Of a stretch of 40,471 bases of DNA, positions 14,886 through 40,471 are shown in pieces (the first letter of the stretch is position 1; the number at the start of each line of letters is the position of its first letter). The notes under the pieces were generated by a model that saw only the letters and a list, made by a program, of their open reading frames with translations, was not told where the DNA came from and made no database searches. The translations under genes and the position numbers were made by a program. This DNA comes from a virus, in IMG/VR virus record IMGVR_UViG_3300047457_000379, positions 1 through 40,471 of that record; one strand, written 5' to 3'.

Positions 14886-14953
14886 AGCGGGATACAGTGC
14901 CTCATCCGTCGCCGCGCCAGGGATACCAGTCACTTTCTGGGTTTCCCGTCAGT

Positions 14954-15062
14954 AACGGTATAAACAGTTTATACCGTTTATACCGTTTATACTGTTTATA
15001 CTGTTTATACCGTTTATACTGTTTATACTGTTTATACTGTTTATACTGTTTATACTGTTTAT
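14954..15062. repeat. Array of ten 9-bp iterons with inverted unit
   Basis: From 14973 to 15062 the unit ACCGTTTAT or ACTGTTTAT is repeated ten times without interruption, with a partial unit at each end. At the left end, arms 14954-14964 and 14968-14978 form an 11-bp inverted repeat around CAG, so the first unit faces the opposite way. This arrangement resembles the iterons of replication origins or a cluster of protein-binding sites. The chance frame through it gives Leu-Tyr-Arg/Cys repeats and is not a gene. Confidence 0.9.
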
Positions 15063-15101
15063 ACTGTTACCTATTCTTATATATACCGGGTTCATTTTCA
15101 T

Positions 15102-15511: not shown

Positions 15512-15520
15512 CCACCAATC

Positions 15521-15852
15521 AACTGGCCATGGACGGCCGTAACCAAAGGATAAATACCATGCAAGCTTTTAAACTGTCTGATGCGACGGGCCTACTCAAC
15601 CTTCCGTTCCTCTTTAATACCAAAGAGGAGGCGCAGCTCGCCTTAAACCACATACGCAATATATGGGAGGATAACGGTTTTTACGATGTTGTGGAGGTAT
15701 TTGATGGCCATCCCGACCTTTGCCAAATAACTGATGAGGAATATGGCGATTATTTTGATGGATTGGCCGACTGTATGGATGTGGACGAGTTCCCTATTAC
15801 CATTGTACAGGTTTAACCTATTAACTGGCCATGGACGGCCGTAACCAAAGGA
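15521..15852 (+). repeat. Duplicated 30-bp leader before two early genes
   Basis: The same 30 bases occur at 15521-15550 and 15823-15852. Each starts AACTGGCCATGGACGGCC and ends with the AAAGGA ribosome-binding site of the gene that follows. Each can form a short GGCC stem with loop ATGGAC. In both copies the ATG in the loop is in frame with the downstream gene. A partial third copy (TGGCCGTAAC) is at 16044-16053, after the third early gene. Confidence 0.9.
15559..15816 (+). CDS. Early small acidic hypothetical protein
   Basis: An 85-residue acidic protein (FKLSDATGLLNLPFLFNTKE at the start; GDYFDGLADCMDVDEFPI near the end). AAAGGA is 8 nt upstream of ATG 15559. An in-frame ATG 10 codons upstream, inside the duplicated leader, could give a longer form beginning MDGRNQR. 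Strongly acidic small early proteins are sometimes DNA mimics; here that is only a possibility from charge. No family recognised. Confidence 0.65.
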   Translation: MQAFKLSDATGLLNLPFLFNTKEEAQLALNHIRNIWEDNGFYDVVEVFDGHPDLCQITDEEYGDYFDGLADCMDVDEFPITIVQV

Positions 15853-15863
15853 GAGATACCTCA

Positions 15864-16945: not shown

Positions 16946-16974
16946 TTTACACATATTTCATCATGGTATATAAT
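16946..16974 (+). promoter_or_regulatory. Rightward promoter of accessory cluster
   Basis: TTTACA (16946-16951), 17-bp spacer, TATAAT (16969-16974). It faces away from the small terminase promoter within the same intergenic region and would drive the genes from 17006 onward with a leader of about 25 nt. Confidence 0.75.
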
Positions 16975-17330: not shown

Positions 17331-17822
17331 ATGAATATCTTCGTACTCGACTATGAACCTAAACTCGCAGCCCAGTATCATTGCGATAAGCACGTAGTTA
17401 AGATGATACTCGAATCTGCTCAAATGTTTTCGACTGTACTCAATCGCGGATATAAGCCAACACATCGTAATCATCCATGTACTCTTTGGTTAGCGCAGTC
17501 TCGTGAGAACGCCGAGTGGCTATATGAACTTAATCATCAACTCAATCTCGAATGCCAACAGCGATTTTGCCATAAACGAGATCATTCATCTTGGGCACTC
17601 ATACGCGATGGCTTAGCGCGGTACTTCAATGAGTTACCAGATGTACCTATGACGCCATTTGCGCAAGCAATGCCCGATACATATAAGTGCAATGCAGATC
17701 CTGTTGGTGCGTATCGTGACTATTATATTCACGAAAAGCGAGATATTGCCTCATGGAGTAACCAAACTCCTTATTGGTGGCCAACAGACGCAGACTATTT
17801 GGAATACAAAGCGACACTGTAA
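17331..17822 (+). CDS. Conserved phage protein of the CDKHVVKM family
   Basis: A 163-residue protein that begins MNIFVLDYEPKLAAQYHCDK and contains HVVKMILESAQ, KPTHRNHPC, AQAMPDTYKC and AYRDYYIHEK. This set of blocks belongs to a widespread phage and cyanophage family of unknown function. Conserved His, Lys and Cys residues in HCDKHVVK and the NHP motif look like an active or metal site. Two bases separate it from the previous stop. An enzyme acting on nucleic acid or nucleotides is a guess. Confidence 0.7.
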   Translation: MNIFVLDYEPKLAAQYHCDKHVVKMILESAQMFSTVLNRGYKPTHRNHPCTLWLAQSRENAEWLYELNHQLNLECQQRFCHKRDHSSWALIRDGLARYFNELPDVPMTPFAQAMPDTYKCNADPVGAYRDYYIHEKRDIASWSNQTPYWWPTDADYLEYKATL

Positions 17823-19213: not shown

Positions 19214-19570
19214 ATGAGAAAACAAAACATTGGAACTGAAAAGTATACTCAAGTCTTTGCTACAGACGAAAAGGAATTCGGAGCGAATCACGCGTATTTA
19301 ATAACATCTTCTGCGTGTAAAACAGAAGATGCAGTCCTTGGAGCGATATATTTCCAAAAAGGTCCCATTAAAGAGAATGGTATTAATGGAGTCATGAATG
19401 AAGACCTGATTGCCGTGGTTATTGACCGTTTAGAAGGGTTTCAGACCACAGATTTCAAGTGCCGTGAGAATGCAATTGCGATTACCAAACTAGAAGAAGC
19501 TCTTCTTTGGTTGCGCAAACGTACTATGGATAGAGAAGCGAGAGGAGTAGAAGGTACTCATATCGTTTAA
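19214..19570 (+). CDS. Acb2/Tad1-family-like signalling nucleotide sponge
   Basis: A 118-residue protein. Residues 48-80 (FQKGPIKENGINGVMNEDLI with VVIDRLEGFQ) and 83-117 (CRENAIAITKLEEALLWLRK followed by RTMDREARGVEGTH) match a common phage helical-hairpin module assigned to the Acb2/Tad1 group. Characterised members bind cyclic oligonucleotides or gcADPR made by CBASS and Thoeris and so block abortive defence. The pattern R-E-N/K-A-x-A-I-T-K-L-E-E-A is the hallmark. Assignment by motif memory only; ligand is unknown. Expression is probably early, from the promoter at 16946. Confidence 0.65.
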   Translation: MRKQNIGTEKYTQVFATDEKEFGANHAYLITSSACKTEDAVLGAIYFQKGPIKENGINGVMNEDLIAVVIDRLEGFQTTDFKCRENAIAITKLEEALLWLRKRTMDREARGVEGTHIV

Positions 19571-23878: not shown

Positions 23879-23907
23879 TTTACTTTTTAATTTACTGTGT
23901 ATATAAT
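23879..23907 (+). promoter_or_regulatory. Middle promoter before abundant small protein
   Basis: TTTACT (23879-23884), 17-bp spacer, TATAAT (23902-23907), with TGTG just before the -10 and the same TAGCAG flank as the promoter at 19579. The leader to the next gene is about 68 nt. Confidence 0.75.
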
Positions 23908-24329: not shown

Positions 24330-24351
24330 ACTGATTCTAGTTTAGGTACTC

Positions 24352-24381
24352 AGCCCACGGCTCCGACAGTCGTGGGCTTTT
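24352..24381 (+). terminator. Intrinsic terminator
   Basis: AGCCCACG (24352-24359) and CGTGGGCT (24371-24378) form an 8-bp stem with an 11-base loop followed by TTT. It lies after the abundant small protein and isolates that unit from the nucleotide genes. Confidence 0.85.
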
Positions 24382-24406
24382 AAAGGGTTTATTTACAGAG
24401 GTTCAC

Positions 24407-24805
24407 ATGTATCTTTCATATTATTTTGTAAGTCAATTTAATGAACAAATTCTTAAATTAGAACGCCCTCCTCTTGGATGCATGCCAAATGATACTGGCA
24501 AGCATCTCTTCAAATGCCTTGTTGAAGAAGCAGATGAATTCTTTGATGCACACGAAGAAGGAAATTTTGTTGGGTGTGTAGACTCTCTTATTGATTCTAT
24601 TTATTTTGCTATTGGCGGACTTTATAAACTTGGTCTTAATGAAGAAGATTGCGCAAGAGTATTTGAATTGGTACATAAAGCTAATATGACCAAAGTACGA
24701 GGCAAAAAGGAAGGACGTATTACTGGTGACGCAGCAGACGCGATTAAACCAGATGAATGGGTCTCTCCTGAGGCTGCGATTGAAAACTATTTCTTCAAGG
24801 ACTAA
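24407..24805 (+). CDS. MazG-like NTP pyrophosphatase
   Basis: A 132-residue all-alpha NTP pyrophosphatase. The metal motif is visible as EEADEFFDA, and, after a helix, DSLIDSIYFAIGG; these supply the EExxE and ExxD-type acidic residues. The end VHKANMTKVRG is typical for phage and bacterial MazG-like proteins. T4's dCTPase (gp56) belongs to the same broad superfamily, so in this cassette a role in draining unmodified dCTP (and dUTP) is attractive, though substrate cannot be read from sequence. A GAGG ribosome-binding site precedes the ATG. Confidence 0.8.
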   Translation: MYLSYYFVSQFNEQILKLERPPLGCMPNDTGKHLFKCLVEEADEFFDAHEEGNFVGCVDSLIDSIYFAIGGLYKLGLNEEDCARVFELVHKANMTKVRGKKEGRITGDAADAIKPDEWVSPEAAIENYFFKD

Positions 24806-24807
24806 CC

Positions 24808-25086
24808 ATGTCAAATATAGATTCAACTCTCGAAAAGCGTGGTTCTAAGTACGGAACTTTTGAAGGCAACGCGCATACAACGCAATTCTTAAAGAGGTTT
24901 TTCAAAACTCATCCTTCTTGGAATCATATGCATGATTACCAAAAAGAATCTCTTGAAATGATCGCACATAAGATTGCACGTATTCTGAATGGCGATCCTG
25001 ATTATGATGATTCTTGGGTTGACATAGCAGGATATGCTACTTTGGTCGTAAAGAAACTTAGAGAGAATGAAGATGCGAACAGCTAG
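24808..25086 (+). CDS. DUF6378-type protein
   Basis: A 92-residue helical protein with the block SLEMIAHKIARILNGDPDYD followed by DSWVDIAGYATL, characteristic of a small phage family (DUF6378) often found beside MazG, thymidylate synthase or deaminase genes. The R-G-x-x-Y-G-x-F opening (KRGSKYGTFEGNA) is also typical. Its biochemical role is unknown; proximity suggests nucleotide metabolism. The next gene begins inside its last codons. Confidence 0.75.
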   Translation: MSNIDSTLEKRGSKYGTFEGNAHTTQFLKRFFKTHPSWNHMHDYQKESLEMIAHKIARILNGDPDYDDSWVDIAGYATLVVKKLRENEDANS

Positions 25087-25876
25087 TATTGCGTGGCTCA
25101 AGTCCATTGACGAAGTAATCCAAAAAGGAGATAGGGTTAATCCAAGAGGAATCCCCACTGTAGAGGTTCTAAATCAAACAATTTGTTTTGACATGAACTA
25201 TCCTATATGCCACCACTTTGAAAGGAAACTCAGTTATAAATTCATGGCGGCTGAAGCGTATTGGATTACCTCTGGTTCCATGTTTGTGGATGAGATTGCT
25301 CCATACAATAAACATATAACTCAGTTCAGTGATGACGGTTATATCTTCAATGGCGCATATGGTCCAAAGATTCTTAATCAAATCAATTTTGTCATTAACA
25401 CGTTATTGAAAGACTCTACATCGCGTCAGGCCATAATGACAATTTGGGTTCCTAATCCAATAAAGACCAAAGATTATGCCTGCACCATATCACTTCAATT
25501 TTTGATTCGTGATGGTAAATTAAATGTGATCGCGAATATGCGCAGCAATGACCTTTGGTTAGGGCGCCCATATGACATGTTTAATTTCACTATCATTGCA
25601 TTGAAAGTATTGACTGAGATCAATGCTACAAATGTAATTGACGAAGACCAGGATTCGATTATTAGGCTTGGTAATATGTGGCTCAATGCAGGTTCATCTC
25701 ATATCTATATGAAAGATTTACCTGTATGTGATTTAATGATTAAAAAACCAATGGAACAATTGCCAACTGCACGAGTTCCAGATATGGCGTTAATCAGTTG
25801 GCGATATGTAACTGACTCTCTTTTGGCTTGCCGTGATGGAATCGAAGATTCTACCTTATGGAAAATCAGACCATGA
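25073..25876 (+). CDS. Thymidylate-synthase-family enzyme, probable dCMP hydroxymethylase
   Basis: A 267-residue enzyme of the thymidylate synthase fold. The catalytic Cys137 lies in DYACTISLQFLIRDGK, followed by NMRSNDLWLGRPYDMF with Arg157, Ser158, Asp160 and Asp168. True thymidylate synthases carry Cys-His and Asn at the positions of Thr138 and Asp168; T4 dCMP hydroxymethylase gp42 has Cys-Thr, MRSND and Asp at these sites, as I recall its sequence. The Asp reads the cytosine ring. The NxGSxHxY motif (LNAGSSHIYMKDL) is also shared. With a glucosyltransferase next to it, production of 5-hydroxymethyl-dCMP is the best reading. Starts at 25067 or 25073 are both possible. Confidence 0.82.
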   Translation: MRTASIAWLKSIDEVIQKGDRVNPRGIPTVEVLNQTICFDMNYPICHHFERKLSYKFMAAEAYWITSGSMFVDEIAPYNKHITQFSDDGYIFNGAYGPKILNQINFVINTLLKDSTSRQAIMTIWVPNPIKTKDYACTISLQFLIRDGKLNVIANMRSNDLWLGRPYDMFNFTIIALKVLTEINATNVIDEDQDSIIRLGNMWLNAGSSHIYMKDLPVCDLMIKKPMEQLPTARVPDMALISWRYVTDSLLACRDGIEDSTLWKIRP

Positions 25877-26967
25877 AAATTGCAATCACCAAAATTGGCG
25901 CTAATATAACATTCTCTCCAAACAACGGAAGTGCGGCGAATGCAGACATTCTCTATGCTCTACGCACTATGAAAGGGCACAGACATGAATTTACGGTTTG
26001 CACTAAGAAGACTTCTAACACGGTACTTCCTAAATCCATTGGATTATCTGATATTAGGAGTTGCCAAAGTTTTAATGACTTTGATCTTGTGCTTGTTTTT
26101 AACGGCAGTATTAACTTTTTCGGCGGTGTTTGCGATGATGCACTTCTTGCTTTGTACCGCGCACTCAACAATACAAAAGTGCCGATTGTATTTGTGCAAA
26201 CTGATGGCGCGTTATATCTTCAAGAATTGTGGCCATTAATCCAAAAGAGAGAATGGGCCAAAGGATTGTCTGCATCTGAATTCTTTGTAGACCCTAAGAA
26301 TGTTTATTATCTTACTCAAGGTAGAGATTATAGTAAAACGCTTGAGTTCTTGAAGAGCGCAAAGAATGCAATTGTTCCTACTTCAATTCACTATTTTCCA
26401 TGGGAACAGACAATTCTTTCTGGCGCAGAGATAGAGAAGTGCGGTACTATTAAACCAAGTGAAAGACTTTATGATCTTGGTTTCGGCGGTTATATTCGTA
26501 ACTCGCACAAACAACGGCGCATTGAACGTTACTATGATGAAGTAGACCTTAAGACTCTCCTCTTTGGTAACCTTCGAGGTATCAAACTTCAATACACTAA
26601 AGTGTTACCAAAAGTATCTTTTCAAAGTATGGTCGGGTATATGTCCGACTGTAAAGCTTCTGTAATTGTTGGAGACTATTATTACAATGATCACTTCCAT
26701 ACTTTACGTATGTATGAGAATCTCCTTGCGGGCTGCGCCATACTTATTGATCGCCAGCTTGATTCATGTGGTGATTTTTATCATGGTATTCCTCATGGTG
26801 AGATGTTCTACGTTGATAAACCAAGCGATGTAAAGAACTTCTTACATAATGACAATTTAGATGAATTGGTGATTAACACCCGACATTATCTCTTGGAAAA
26901 TCGAGATATTAACAAACTAAACTGTAGATTAAAGACTATTTTGGAGGACATATGCGACCTTCACTAG
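25873..26967 (+). CDS. DNA beta-glucosyltransferase, T4 BGT homologue
   Basis: A 364-residue GT-B glycosyltransferase similar to T4 DNA beta-glucosyltransferase along most of its length (351 residues in T4). Shared blocks include the start MKIAI, NxSINFFGG (residues 77-85), the catalytic Asp (Asp111 in VQTDGALYLQELWP, equal to T4 Asp100), FPxEQ, the UDP-binding GGYIRNSHKQRRI, FGNLR and the C-domain VGDYYYNDHFHTLRMYENLL with ILID. The enzyme moves glucose from UDP-glucose to 5-hydroxymethylcytosine in DNA. The start at 25873 (ATGA overlap with the hydroxymethylase stop) matches the T4 N-terminus better than the ATG at 25858. Confidence 0.9.
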   Translation: MKIAITKIGANITFSPNNGSAANADILYALRTMKGHRHEFTVCTKKTSNTVLPKSIGLSDIRSCQSFNDFDLVLVFNGSINFFGGVCDDALLALYRALNNTKVPIVFVQTDGALYLQELWPLIQKREWAKGLSASEFFVDPKNVYYLTQGRDYSKTLEFLKSAKNAIVPTSIHYFPWEQTILSGAEIEKCGTIKPSERLYDLGFGGYIRNSHKQRRIERYYDEVDLKTLLFGNLRGIKLQYTKVLPKVSFQSMVGYMSDCKASVIVGDYYYNDHFHTLRMYENLLAGCAILIDRQLDSCGDFYHGIPHGEMFYVDKPSDVKNFLHNDNLDELVINTRHYLLENRDINKLNCRLKTILEDICDLH

Positions 26968-27389
26968 ACCAATATATGATGAATATCGCTAGCGTCGTGG
27001 CAACTAGAAGTACATGTTCTAGACGCGCTGTTGGTGCAGTAATCGTAGACCATAGTGGTCATATTCTTTCTACTGGTTTCAATGGAGTACCAAGTGGAGT
27101 TACTCATTGTACTGACGTTCCGTGTAGAGGAGTTGACTTGCCATCTGGTCAAGGATTAGACATCTGCAAAGCACAACATGCAGAAGTAAATGCAATTGCG
27201 CACTGTAGAGATCTTCGAAATGCATTTGCCATTTATGTCACTACAAGTCCTTGTATGAATTGTGCCAAACTAATCGCAGCCACTAACATTAAGAAAGTAG
27301 TGTTTATGGGCGATGTATATGATGTCACATCTTTGGATTATTTAGATGACGTCAAGTTAGAGTTGTTTGCAGTACCAAAGGAGGATTAA
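26952..27389 (+). CDS. dCMP deaminase
   Basis: A 145-residue zinc enzyme that converts dCMP to dUMP. Zinc and catalytic residues are visible: HAEVNAI (His and proton-shuttle Glu) and SPCMNCAKL (two Cys). The insertion GVTHCTDVPCRG provides the second, structural metal site typical of phage and eukaryotic dCMP deaminases, and TGFNGVPSG is the nucleotide loop. GGAGG lies 5 nt before the ATG, inside the end of the glucosyltransferase gene. It removes dCMP toward dTTP and so competes with the hydroxymethylase for substrate. Confidence 0.92.
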   Translation: MRPSLDQYMMNIASVVATRSTCSRRAVGAVIVDHSGHILSTGFNGVPSGVTHCTDVPCRGVDLPSGQGLDICKAQHAEVNAIAHCRDLRNAFAIYVTTSPCMNCAKLIAATNIKKVVFMGDVYDVTSLDYLDDVKLELFAVPKED

Positions 27390-30163: not shown

Positions 30164-31408
30164 ATGGGTATCAACGCAATTCCTAAACCTCACTATGTAA
30201 CCGATGACCTACATAGCGAACTATCCCCATCTGGCGCTAAGCGTTGGATTACCTGTCCTGCTTCCATTAACTTCTTACGTAACATTAAGAAAGTACCTCA
30301 GAAATCTAGTATCCATGCTGAGGAAGGTACTGCAGCGCATGAACTTGCGGCTTTTTGTTTAGAAAATGAAGTTAAACCAGAATCTTGTATTGGCAAAGTA
30401 TTTAACAAGTTTAAAGTAGACGCAGAGATGGCTAGACAAGTAGCCAAATATGTGGATTACGTAGAAGGCGCAGTGACTTGGGATGCGGCACTCTGGGTTG
30501 AAAATCGCCTATCTTTGGAAACCATAGAAGAGAATATGTTCGGTACTGCGGATGCCATCATCGTATCCGAAGATGGGATTGAAGTAGTAGACCTTAAGTA
30601 TGGTAAAGGCGTTGTAGTAGAAGTAGAGGATAATCCTCAGTTATCACTCTATGCAATTGGAGTATTGGTCCATTTAGCCAAGAATGGACTTAGATTTGGC
30701 GATGACACTGAAGTTAAATTGACTATTGCCCAACCGCGTGCAGCACATGCAGATGGCCCCATTAGATCTACTACTCTTACCGTGGCTCAATTAAAAGACT
30801 TTAAAGAGCAAGTTAAAAAGGCAATTGAAATCTCCAAGTTGCCCACTGCTCCATTCGGTCCTGGTACTGACCAATGTAGGTGGTGTGATGGCGCTCCTAC
30901 TTGTAAGGCTTTTGCCGAGCATAATCTTAGAGTTGCCCAACTTGAATTTGCGGATATGCTCAAGACTCCTTTGGAAGTAAAGCAAAAGCTTCCAAATGTA
31001 GAGGAACTTACTGAAGAAGAATTGTCTAAGATTATGACGCATTCTAAGACAATTGAGAATTGGCTTAATGCAGTAGGAGAAAGGGCGATCAAGTTAGCCA
31101 AATCAGGTACTGAAATTCCTAGATGGAAACTTGTGTATGGCCGTTCAAATAGAGCTTGGTCTTCTGAGTCTAAAGTAGTGGCCGCATTAGAAGAGTATGG
31201 CACAGATCTTAATAGACTCTATGAGAAGAAATTCTTGTCTCCTTCCAAAGCAGAGAAAGAATTGACTAATGCAGAATGGGAACATGTAAAAGATTTCATA
31301 TTTAAACCAACAGGAAAGATTACTCTGGCTCCTGAAACTGACGGTAGACCTGCCGTAGATGCGAATAAGGCAGCAGCGGATGACTGGGAGGGTGAGGATG
31401 TAGAATGA
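30164..31408 (+). CDS. DUF2800 PD-(D/E)XK nuclease, RecB/Cas4-like
   Basis: A 414-residue nuclease. SPSGAKRWITCPASINFL is the family's opening with the first Cys; GTAAHELAAF is the conserved helix; GTADAIIVSEDGIEVVDLKY supplies the PD-(D/E)xK core (Asp, then D-x-K), followed by NPQLSLYAIG (QxxxY). CRWCDGAPTCKAF gives three more Cys, so an iron-sulphur cluster like that in Cas4 or AddB is likely. It probably acts as an exonuclease in recombination or DNA processing. AAAGGAG precedes the ATG. The GIY-YIG gene overlaps its stop by four bases. Confidence 0.88.
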   Translation: MGINAIPKPHYVTDDLHSELSPSGAKRWITCPASINFLRNIKKVPQKSSIHAEEGTAAHELAAFCLENEVKPESCIGKVFNKFKVDAEMARQVAKYVDYVEGAVTWDAALWVENRLSLETIEENMFGTADAIIVSEDGIEVVDLKYGKGVVVEVEDNPQLSLYAIGVLVHLAKNGLRFGDDTEVKLTIAQPRAAHADGPIRSTTLTVAQLKDFKEQVKKAIEISKLPTAPFGPGTDQCRWCDGAPTCKAFAEHNLRVAQLEFADMLKTPLEVKQKLPNVEELTEEELSKIMTHSKTIENWLNAVGERAIKLAKSGTEIPRWKLVYGRSNRAWSSESKVVAALEEYGTDLNRLYEKKFLSPSKAEKELTNAEWEHVKDFIFKPTGKITLAPETDGRPAVDANKAAADDWEGEDVE

Positions 31409-31725
31409 AGATCTATTATATCTATGTATTGAAAACCACAGAGTGTAATAAGGTTTATGTCGGCATTACTACAGATCCTAAACGTAGAGAGCGCCAACAT
31501 AAGAACGTAGAAGGCAAGATGTGGAAACAATTAACCAAATGTGGAAGAGCTGTAAAACGTTATGGAGCAAGTACTTTTACTTTGGTTGTGAAAGACCAAG
31601 CGACTACCAAAAAAGAAGCCGCAAGACTAGAAAAGGTCTGGATCGAAAGATTCGGACCTAAGCGTTTATGGAACTCTTCTCGTGGTGGCGAATATAAACC
31701 TGATTTGGAGACTACAGATGACTGA
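31405..31725 (+). CDS. GIY-YIG endonuclease
   Basis: A 106-residue protein that is almost only the catalytic GIY-YIG domain: IYYIYVLK and KVYVGIT are the two signature strands, TDPKRRERQH carries the catalytic Arg, and EKVWIERFGP the metal-binding Glu, then LWNSSRGGE the conserved Asn. No DNA-binding extension follows. It is coupled to its neighbours by overlaps on both sides, so it looks like an established member of the operon rather than a recent homing insertion. Confidence 0.88.
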   Translation: MKIYYIYVLKTTECNKVYVGITTDPKRRERQHKNVEGKMWKQLTKCGRAVKRYGASTFTLVVKDQATTKKEAARLEKVWIERFGPKRLWNSSRGGEYKPDLETTDD

Positions 31726-38964: not shown

Positions 38965-40471
38965 TATACAACCTCCATCTCTTTCTTAATGTTACCAATG
39001 GTAGAACAGATTGCCAATCCTAGTTCCATAATGGCAAATCCAACCAAAGAGAATTTATGATTAGAACCCATACGTCGCGCCATTTCCTTTGACCAGGGTT
39101 TAGCAAAGATATTGATTACACTAGTGAGCACCTTTGATTTGCGCATTTTCTCTACTACGGTTGGCGCCCAAGAGATATACCCATCATAAGTCTCTGGAGA
39201 TGTCATACGGATCATTTCGCCAAAGAGATCGTCATATTCATAAATCTCATCTGACATTAAACCTTGACGGTGCAGTTCAGTACAGATGACAGTACCGCCA
39301 CCGCCACCGCCGCCGCCTACTCCACCACCACCTCCCATACCGAAGGCATTAGAACTACCTTGACTTGCACTACTAGTTCTACCAGAACCAAGAACAATTG
39401 GTCCGCCAATTGCATTTGCGAGTTGGTCAGTCAATCCACCTGGTGCAAGATACTGGTTCATACCGCCACCTGCCATACCTTGTACAGTAGGCATCATTTG
39501 ACCACCAGCAACCATAGAACCCTGTTGTCCACCAACCATTCCAGTAAGAAGGTTCTGACGGGCAATGTTATTCTGGTCCAAACCAAGGTTATAATTCTGC
39601 GTACCTTGTGCTTGACCAAGATTATAATTCATAAGAGCTTGGTTCATACCAAGATTATAATCTTGATTGTTTCGGTTAAATGTATTTACATTTGAACCAT
39701 AACCAAGATTATAGTTCTGAGCATTCTGATTAAATGCATTTACATTTGAACCAAGTCCAAGGTTATAATTGAGATTCTGTTGGTTCTGAGTATTACCAAG
39801 TCCACCCATACCAAGATTATAAGTTTGGGCGTTCTGTGCGGCAGTATTACCAGCACCTAGCAAACCAAGATTATACTGTTGGTTACCAAGGTATCTCTGT
39901 ACATTTGCTTGGTCTGCTTGTCTAGCAATGTCAAGTTTCTGCGCAAGATCCTTATCGAATGTATTATAACCGACGTCAGTTAAGTTGCGTTGGAGATTCT
40001 GGTTGATACCTTGAAGCGCTCCCGCTTGGGCAATTCCCTGTCTGGATGAACCTGACATACCCGCTCTTGCAGCCCTTGCGTCCAACGCATTAAGAGACGT
40101 ACCGGCGGTTCGTAATGCATCAGTCTGCATTTGGTTCTTAAGTGCGTCCGCATAAGAGTTACCAGAACCTCCCATAATAGATTCGTAAATGCGCTGTTGA
40201 TTACTAGTCTGATTAGGATTAGTATCTTGCTGAACAAGTCCTGCCTGACCAAGGAGAGGATTATTAGTACCCCCTGAAAGTCTCATCTGATTTACAAGAT
40301 TAGACTGATTAGTGTTGATCTGTCCAGGAAGGTTTACGTCTGATCTATAACCAGGAAGATTCTGTACCGCTGCAGGTGCCATAAGTCCTTGATAACCAGG
40401 ACCTTGGGCATTCAACAATTGTTGATTACCACCACTAATCTGACGAGCGATATCCGCTCCACTAATACCTT
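38964..40471 (-). CDS. Internal virion / tail-associated Gly-Asn-rich protein, main part
   Basis: This is the larger part of the 585-residue gene that begins at 377 across the junction; the bases from 40345 are the duplicate of 1-127. The middle carries seven copies of a YNLG motif with Asn/Gln/Gly-rich spacers of about 12-16 residues, then a glycine tract, and a separate C-terminal domain (TVICTELHRQGLMSDEIYEY, then DGYISWAPTVVEKMRKS) that ends many phage tail and internal proteins and may be a processing or assembly module. The gene opens the block of internal virion proteins. Confidence 0.82.
   Translation of the reverse strand, partial: GISGADIARQISGGNQQLLNAQGPGYQGLMAPAAVQNLPGYRSDVNLPGQINTNQSNLVNQMRLSGGTNNPLLGQAGLVQQDTNPNQTSNQQRIYESIMGGSGNSYADALKNQMQTDALRTAGTSLNALDARAARAGMSGSSRQGIAQAGALQGINQNLQRNLTDVGYNTFDKDLAQKLDIARQADQANVQRYLGNQQYNLGLLGAGNTAAQNAQTYNLGMGGLGNTQNQQNLNYNLGLGSNVNAFNQNAQNYNLGYGSNVNTFNRNNQDYNLGMNQALMNYNLGQAQGTQNYNLGLDQNNIARQNLLTGMVGGQQGSMVAGGQMMPTVQGMAGGGMNQYLAPGGLTDQLANAIGGPIVLGSGRTSSASQGSSNAFGMGGGGGVGGGGGGGGTVICTELHRQGLMSDEIYEYDDLFGEMIRMTSPETYDGYISWAPTVVEKMRKSKVLTSVINIFAKPWSKEMARRMGSNHKFSLVGFAIMELGLAICSTIGNIKKEMEVV
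40345..40471. repeat. Terminal overlap of circular assembly, right copy
   Basis: Exact duplicate of positions 1-127. Removing one copy gives a closed circle of 40,344 bp and restores the internal virion protein gene that starts at 377 and ends at 38964. Confidence 0.95.

Follow-up and report, generated by a model that had tools for sequence, protein, structure and literature searches.

A candidate cytosine-hypermodification operon with a T4-type DNA beta-glucosyltransferase in a 40-kb podovirus-type phage genome

Background

Among described phage systems, the gp42/beta-glucosyltransferase (BGT) pathway of T4 shares with the gene set that is the subject of this work (positions 24407-27389 of the IMG/VR virus record IMGVR_UViG_3300047457_000379; the whole record of 40,471 nt was analysed and is called the window) its two diagnostic enzymes, a deoxycytidine monophosphate (dCMP) hydroxymethylase and a BGT, in the same order, together with a T4-like dCMP deaminase and a MazG-type pyrophosphatase. 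The window differs from T4 in being a 40-kb podovirus-type genome, in having a hydroxymethylase from a different branch of the family, and in that no gp1 kinase was found in it. In the 85-kb Enterococcus phages VPE25, VFW and vipetofem, and in related metagenome contigs, an annotated BGT gene already lies beside that of a dCMP-type enzyme, giving a hydroxymethylase-BGT cluster outside the T4-like phages; these phages differ from the window in that a kinase is present, a dUTPase takes the place of MazG, and no dCMP deaminase was matched in the locus, and their BGT is 41% identical to that of T4, against 26% for the window clade. Stenotrophomonas phage AXL3, Pseudoxanthomonas phage PW916, podovirus ct3Et533 and many IMG/VR contigs carry the same cassette backbone as the window, but with an S-adenosylmethionine (SAM)-type methyltransferase and no BGT, whereas in the window clade BGT is present and that type of methyltransferase is absent. 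In the MetaGPA study, a Pfam set of thymidylate synthase (TS), PRA-PH and dCMP deaminase, shared with the window, was enriched on viral contigs with experimentally modified cytosine, and the decorating enzyme was a 5-hydroxymethylcytosine (hmC) carbamoyltransferase rather than BGT (PMC8670742).

An earlier note on this DNA, written from its letters alone, had described the gene set as a T4-like cassette in a 40-kb podovirus, and the pathway as one known mainly from T4-like myoviruses. The latter view is too narrow, because the 85-kb Enterococcus phages carry BGT. BGT outside the T4-like phages and the cassette backbone are already on record; new here are the closed 40-kb podovirus-type setting, a diverged BGT clade, and the exchange of a kinase for another protein. 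Sequence comparison and structure prediction gave us, for the hydroxymethylase and BGT, the family, fold and active-site residues, and also the conserved clustering of their genes and a weak avoidance of restriction sites. We propose that the set is very probably a cytosine-hypermodification operon whose products would make glucosylated hmC DNA and so protect the phage from restriction.

Results and discussion

Cassette genes and the hydroxymethylase

The five genes are open, all on the + strand, with Pfam matches far above chance; open frames, Pfam and PHROG matches confirm the assignments of the earlier note. They encode, in order, a MazG/PRA-PH-type nucleoside triphosphate pyrophosphatase (24407..24805; PF01503, 6e-8; PHROG 671 nucleotide pyrophosphohydrolase, 3e-19), a DUF6378 protein of 92 amino acids (24808..25086; PF19905, 1e-6), a predicted dCMP hydroxymethylase of the thymidylate synthase superfamily (25067..25876; PF00303 (Thymidylat_synt), 3e-20), a predicted DNA beta-glucosyltransferase of the T4 BGT family (25873..26967; PF09198 (T4-Gluco-transf), 4e-16) and a dCMP deaminase (26952..27389; PF00383 (dCMP_cyt_deam_1), 2e-22; PHROG 174, 1e-42). 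The packing is as tight as had been described: a gap of 2 bp separates the MazG-type and DUF6378 genes, and overlaps occur at the other three junctions (20 bp between DUF6378 and hydroxymethylase, 4-19 bp between hydroxymethylase and BGT according to the BGT start chosen, 16 bp between BGT and deaminase). The top PDB match of the deaminase is T4 dCMP deaminase (1vq2, 3e-16). The MazG-type protein matches 3nl9 (7e-7) and, weakly, DR2231; by analogy, it is proposed as the dCTPase counterpart of T4 gp56.

PDB matches of the 25067-25876 product are MilA (3e-18) and T4 gp42 (5e-12). Catalytic Cys139 and Glu63, corresponding to T4 C148 and E60, are present, and Asp136 stands three residues before Cys139, where E. 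coli ThyA has Leu; an acidic residue (Asp or Glu) at this position marks hydroxymethylases, and synthases have Leu (PMC6400193). At the base-recognition position the window enzyme has Asp170, and ThyA and phage SP8 have Asn; Asp is found here in enzymes acting on cytosine and Asn in those acting on uracil (the synthases and those making 5-hydroxymethyluracil) (PMC5175136). Arg120 and Ser160 are those of the type preferring deoxynucleotides, in place of which MilA, acting on cytidine monophosphate, has Lys and Ala (PMC5175136). Because every published signature residue tested (E63, R120, D136, C139, S160 and D170) is present, the assignment as a dCMP hydroxymethylase, already suggested from the features of this TS-family enzyme, is well supported as far as sequence tells. 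The enzyme might instead make 5-methyl-dCMP or use deoxyuridine monophosphate (dUMP), with the neighbouring transferase serving another acceptor, e.g. host polysaccharide, since phage synthase-family enzymes also make 5-methyl-dCMP and 5-hydroxymethyl-dUMP (PMC5175136). The Asp at the cytosine position and that three residues before the catalytic Cys speak against dUMP and against simple methylation, and the transferase, a member of the DNA-specific BGT family, is encoded beside the hydroxymethylase in four lineages (see below); we consider this alternative very improbable.

Beta-glucosyltransferase

The BGT protein scores 59.5 bits against PF09198 (curated cut-off 27) and matches PHROG 7922 beta-glucosyltransferase (4e-27) and PDB 1bgt (3e-25). 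Its open frame begins at ATG 25858; ATG 25873, the start favoured before, is the more likely one, because it is aligned with the start of all relatives. The AlphaFold2 model (predicted local distance difference test 88, predicted template modelling score 0.87) superposes on T4 BGT with Z 35.8 and a root-mean-square deviation of 2.5 over 336 residues, and the next family, T4 alpha-glucosyltransferase, follows at Z 20.9; Foldseek also retrieved T4 BGT (E 4e-22). The homology to T4 BGT seen by the earlier note is thereby upheld. T4 Asp100, the catalytic residue that is mutated in 1nzd, corresponds to Asp116, which is invariant in 20 homologues. T4 residues G188, R191, Y261, R269 and E272, which we take to be pocket residues, are represented by G211, R214, Y276, R284 and E287, and T267 is also conserved. 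Loss of the pocket, which the note had named as refuting, was not found in the model; the catalytic Asp and the pocket residues are kept. At about 26% identity to T4 BGT, the 25873-26967 product is therefore a well-supported T4-type BGT by sequence and model, with glucose transfer predicted. Alpha-glucosyltransferase was not seen in family scans of the window.

Restriction-site avoidance

A genome whose cytosines are blocked has no need to avoid restriction palindromes. The observed/expected (O/E) ratio of palindromic 6-mers is 0.925 in the window, and its median is 0.94 for 29 hydroxymethylase loci against 0.66 for 27 control loci (p 1e-9), the controls being DUF6378-bearing phage loci that lack a hydroxymethylase and were not matched for host; none of the 27 reaches the value of the window. 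Composition-matched non-palindromes gave 0.99 and 0.95, with little difference between the two groups of loci. For GATC, O/E is 0.98 in the window, 0.92-0.99 in sister phages, and 0.31-0.34 in the cassette-less phages VA-RY-3 and Ss1. This weak avoidance of palindromes supports protection from restriction without identifying the base. Almost no palindrome avoidance was also observed in the loci with the order methyltransferase-MazG-kinase-hydroxymethylase-deaminase (L047-L079, AXL3, PW916 and ct3Et533).

Sister lineages and origin of the cassette

Three sister lineages in IMG/VR (L020; L043/L044; L045/L046) carry hydroxymethylase and BGT at the same place, and the two genes adjoin in all four lineages, the window included. 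The sister order is primase, helicase, a small protein, MazG, kinase, hydroxymethylase, BGT and usually dCMP deaminase, followed by SSB, PolA, exonuclease, GIY-YIG and ligase. Searches with alignments of clade BGT and PolA found no further close members of the clade; a single-sequence BGT query against IMG/VR gave no relatives, which were reached with an alignment query. One degenerate BGT pattern run against bacterial and archaeal genomes found no relative, though prophage copies may exist. The hydroxymethylase tree groups the four lineages in a single supported clade (100/99), separate from T4 gp42 and from the Enterococcus type; its deep, long branches are uncertain. The nearest hydroxymethylases outside this clade (40-47%) belong to phages whose cassette has the order methyltransferase-MazG-kinase-hydroxymethylase-deaminase and lacks BGT. 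The transferase phylogeny that the earlier note had called for gave a single window clade (100/100) remote from the T4 and Enterococcus BGTs. The simplest reading of these sequences is that BGT joined a pre-existing cassette type and that the whole set was not transplanted from T4. In the one near-identical pair compared, BGT had dN (nonsynonymous) 0.006 and dS (synonymous) 0.028, from 11 differences, too few for weight.

The proposed pathway

From these comparisons we infer the enzyme activities, the order of the steps, including phosphorylation, which sugar is used and how extensively the DNA is modified. The MazG-type enzyme would lower deoxycytidine triphosphate, yielding dCMP, which the hydroxymethylase would convert to 5-hydroxymethyl-dCMP (hm-dCMP) using methylene-tetrahydrofolate. 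A host nucleotide kinase, or a phage function not yet recognised, would probably raise this to the triphosphate, which would then be polymerised into DNA; there, BGT would flip out hmC and attach glucose from host uridine diphosphate glucose (UDP-glucose). The dCMP deaminase would divert leftover dCMP toward deoxythymidine triphosphate, and the glucosylated DNA would resist restriction. The prediction of glucosyl-hmC DNA made in the earlier note is supported by the hydroxymethylase residues, the BGT fold and catalytic Asp, and the weak palindrome avoidance. Its description of the set as T4-like holds for the hydroxymethylase and BGT as enzymes; it does not extend to a gp1-type kinase, which is missing, or to the hydroxymethylase lineage, which is not that of T4, and the match to gp56 is at superfamily level.

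Several points weigh against this proposal. The MazG-type gene resembles T4 gp56 at the superfamily level only (gp56 itself matches the PRA-PH profile weakly, E 0.019). Phage tf, a cassette-less relative, is nearly as unavoidant as the window (palindromic 6-mer O/E 0.906), and palindrome avoidance varies with host too. T4 E22 and R195 are replaced by Asp30 and Lys218, conservative changes fixed in the whole podovirus clade. No nucleotide kinase was found in the window by tblastn with T4 gp1 and the kinases of seven relatives, and T4 has in gp1 a dedicated kinase annotated as acting on hm-dCMP and not on dCMP.

The two substitutions, E22D and R195K, in a clade so distant from T4 would fit the same pathway working with another nucleotide sugar, such as a pentose, or modifying the DNA only in part. 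In other phages, hmC is decorated with arabinose or a different pentose (PMC6024577; PMC12838424). No nucleotide-sugar synthesis gene was recognised among the window genes scanned, so that host UDP-glucose is the simplest donor, and the fold match is specific to BGT; a different sugar or partial modification is unlikely.

The missing kinase could mean that the gene was lost, that hmC is not activated, and that the cassette is decaying in a phage whose DNA is largely unmodified: the window has no P-loop nucleotide kinase, and all three sister lineages have one. The five genes are nevertheless intact and tightly packed, the active-site residues are retained, restriction palindromes are not avoided in the window, and kinase-less hydroxymethylase cassettes are common elsewhere with their genes likewise intact. 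We regard decay as highly unlikely and glucosylation of hmC as the preferred reading.

The kinase slot

In all three sister lineages, the gene between those for MazG and hydroxymethylase encodes a P-loop protein resembling thymidylate kinase; in the window, DUF6378 occupies this slot. A hidden P-loop kinase was sought and rejected: strict and loose P-loop scans gave only those of the terminase and primase/helicase. Among 46 hydroxymethylase loci, which are related to one another and not independent, the kinase is present in 37 and missing in 9; all nine of the latter have DUF6378 or a DUF1599-like protein (two were found through a DUF6378 search, and six supplied the sequences for the DUF1599-like profile), and the kinase co-occurs with either protein in 0/46. 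Given this sampling, no weight is placed on the p-value calculated for the association. When the DUF1599-like profile was used in a separate search, 25 loci were retrieved; a TS/hydroxymethylase gene was a neighbour in 24 of them and a kinase in none, some contigs being shared with the earlier set. The DUF1599-like protein, about 125 amino acids long with a weak Pfam match (E 0.03-0.06) and the motif SYAQMLHTK..R, DTALDIINYAGF, occupies the kinase slot of L058, L059, L062, L064, L069, L073 and L173-L197, and no kinase was found in any of these loci.

The link of the DUF1599-like protein to the kinase slot looks real. The position of DUF6378 there may be accidental, because the majority of DUF6378 neighbourhoods have no hydroxymethylase at all. 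The two proteins have an end motif (D...DI..Y) that is similar by eye; a relationship between them was rejected, since profile comparison was not significant (probability 0.5%). The DUF6378 model is helical and confident, and a fold search gave no clear match or solved relative (best Z 6.6, a score that helical bundles can reach by chance). It is a doubtful possibility that the hm-dCMP kinase is replaced by small DUF6378- or DUF1599-type helical proteins, either as an unrecognised kinase type or by making a host kinase able to act on the modified nucleotide; the more cautious explanation is still that a host kinase phosphorylates hm-dCMP.

The phage genome and its other features

A 127-bp direct repeat is exact at both window ends (1-127 and 40345-40471), and the record is a complete, closed genome with a unique length of 40,344 bp. 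An assembler that closes a circle leaves an overlap equal to its k-mer, and 127 is a common assembler k-mer; the repeat therefore indicates a closed assembly, and physical terminal repeats are not thereby proven. The portal, scaffold, major head, terminase and virion genes match those of podoviruses in the same module. Of the named phages, Vibrio phage VA-RY-3 and Cronobacter phage Ss1 come closest (identity of 49-52% in the portal and 58-59% in TerL), and LUZ24-like phages are more distant. The head and tail gene matches and the closed genome bear out the description as a 40-kb podovirus, and the names of the relatives (vB_CsaP, vB_ValP) point by analogy to a short-tailed morphology. No full-length close DNA relative was found among 50,697 phage records. 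The genomes of VA-RY-3 and Ss1 gave 0 matches to any window cassette protein; their annotated 'thymidylate synthase', tried as a parallel cassette, was rejected, as it did not align with the thymidylate-synthase/hydroxymethylase family, and is presumably of the ThyX type.

A terminator-like hairpin (AGCCCACG...CGTGGGCTTTT; 24340..24400, + strand; RNA fold -21.2 kcal/mol, z -3.7) lies just 5' of the cassette, and a promoter-like site (TTTACT-17-TATAAT, 10/12; 23879..23907, + strand) lies upstream of the unit holding it. Similar + strand sites, 11/12, occur at 16946, 19579 and 27399; these TTTAC(A/T)-17-TATAAT sites (with that at 23879) precede early transcription units, two of the four are in a 42-bp repeated element, and promoter-like sites are in total no more numerous in the region than in shuffled sequence.

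Downstream, a GIY-YIG endonuclease (31405-31725) is encoded between exonuclease and ligase; its position is kept in all three sister lineages, which suggests that in these phages it may not be a mobile homing gene. A 118-amino-acid protein (19214-19570) resembles the Acb2/Tad1 hairpin family (PF24729, 7.5e-6, just under the cut-off; PHROG 2428, 4e-43) and is a possible anti-CBASS or anti-Thoeris sponge. A pyrimidine-dimer glycosylase-like protein is encoded at 17331-17822 (Pyr_excise, 2e-6; PHROG 624). A 9-bp tandem repeat (ACTGTTTAT), present in about 12 copies, lies in the intergenic stretch 5' of the terminase (14937-15089), and a pair of 45-bp direct repeats, 91% alike, lies in the early region (15514-15558 and 15816-15860).

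Conclusions

The palindrome measure offers a simple way to pick genomes that are likely modified, and the deeply diverged BGT might serve as a new hmC-labelling enzyme. The locus also raises the question of how hm-dCMP would be activated without a phage kinase. With BGT-type glucosylation predicted for a 40-kb podovirus-type genome, and the hydroxymethylase tied to a widespread environmental cassette and not to T4, sugar-coated cytosine may be commoner among phages than the T4 model suggests.

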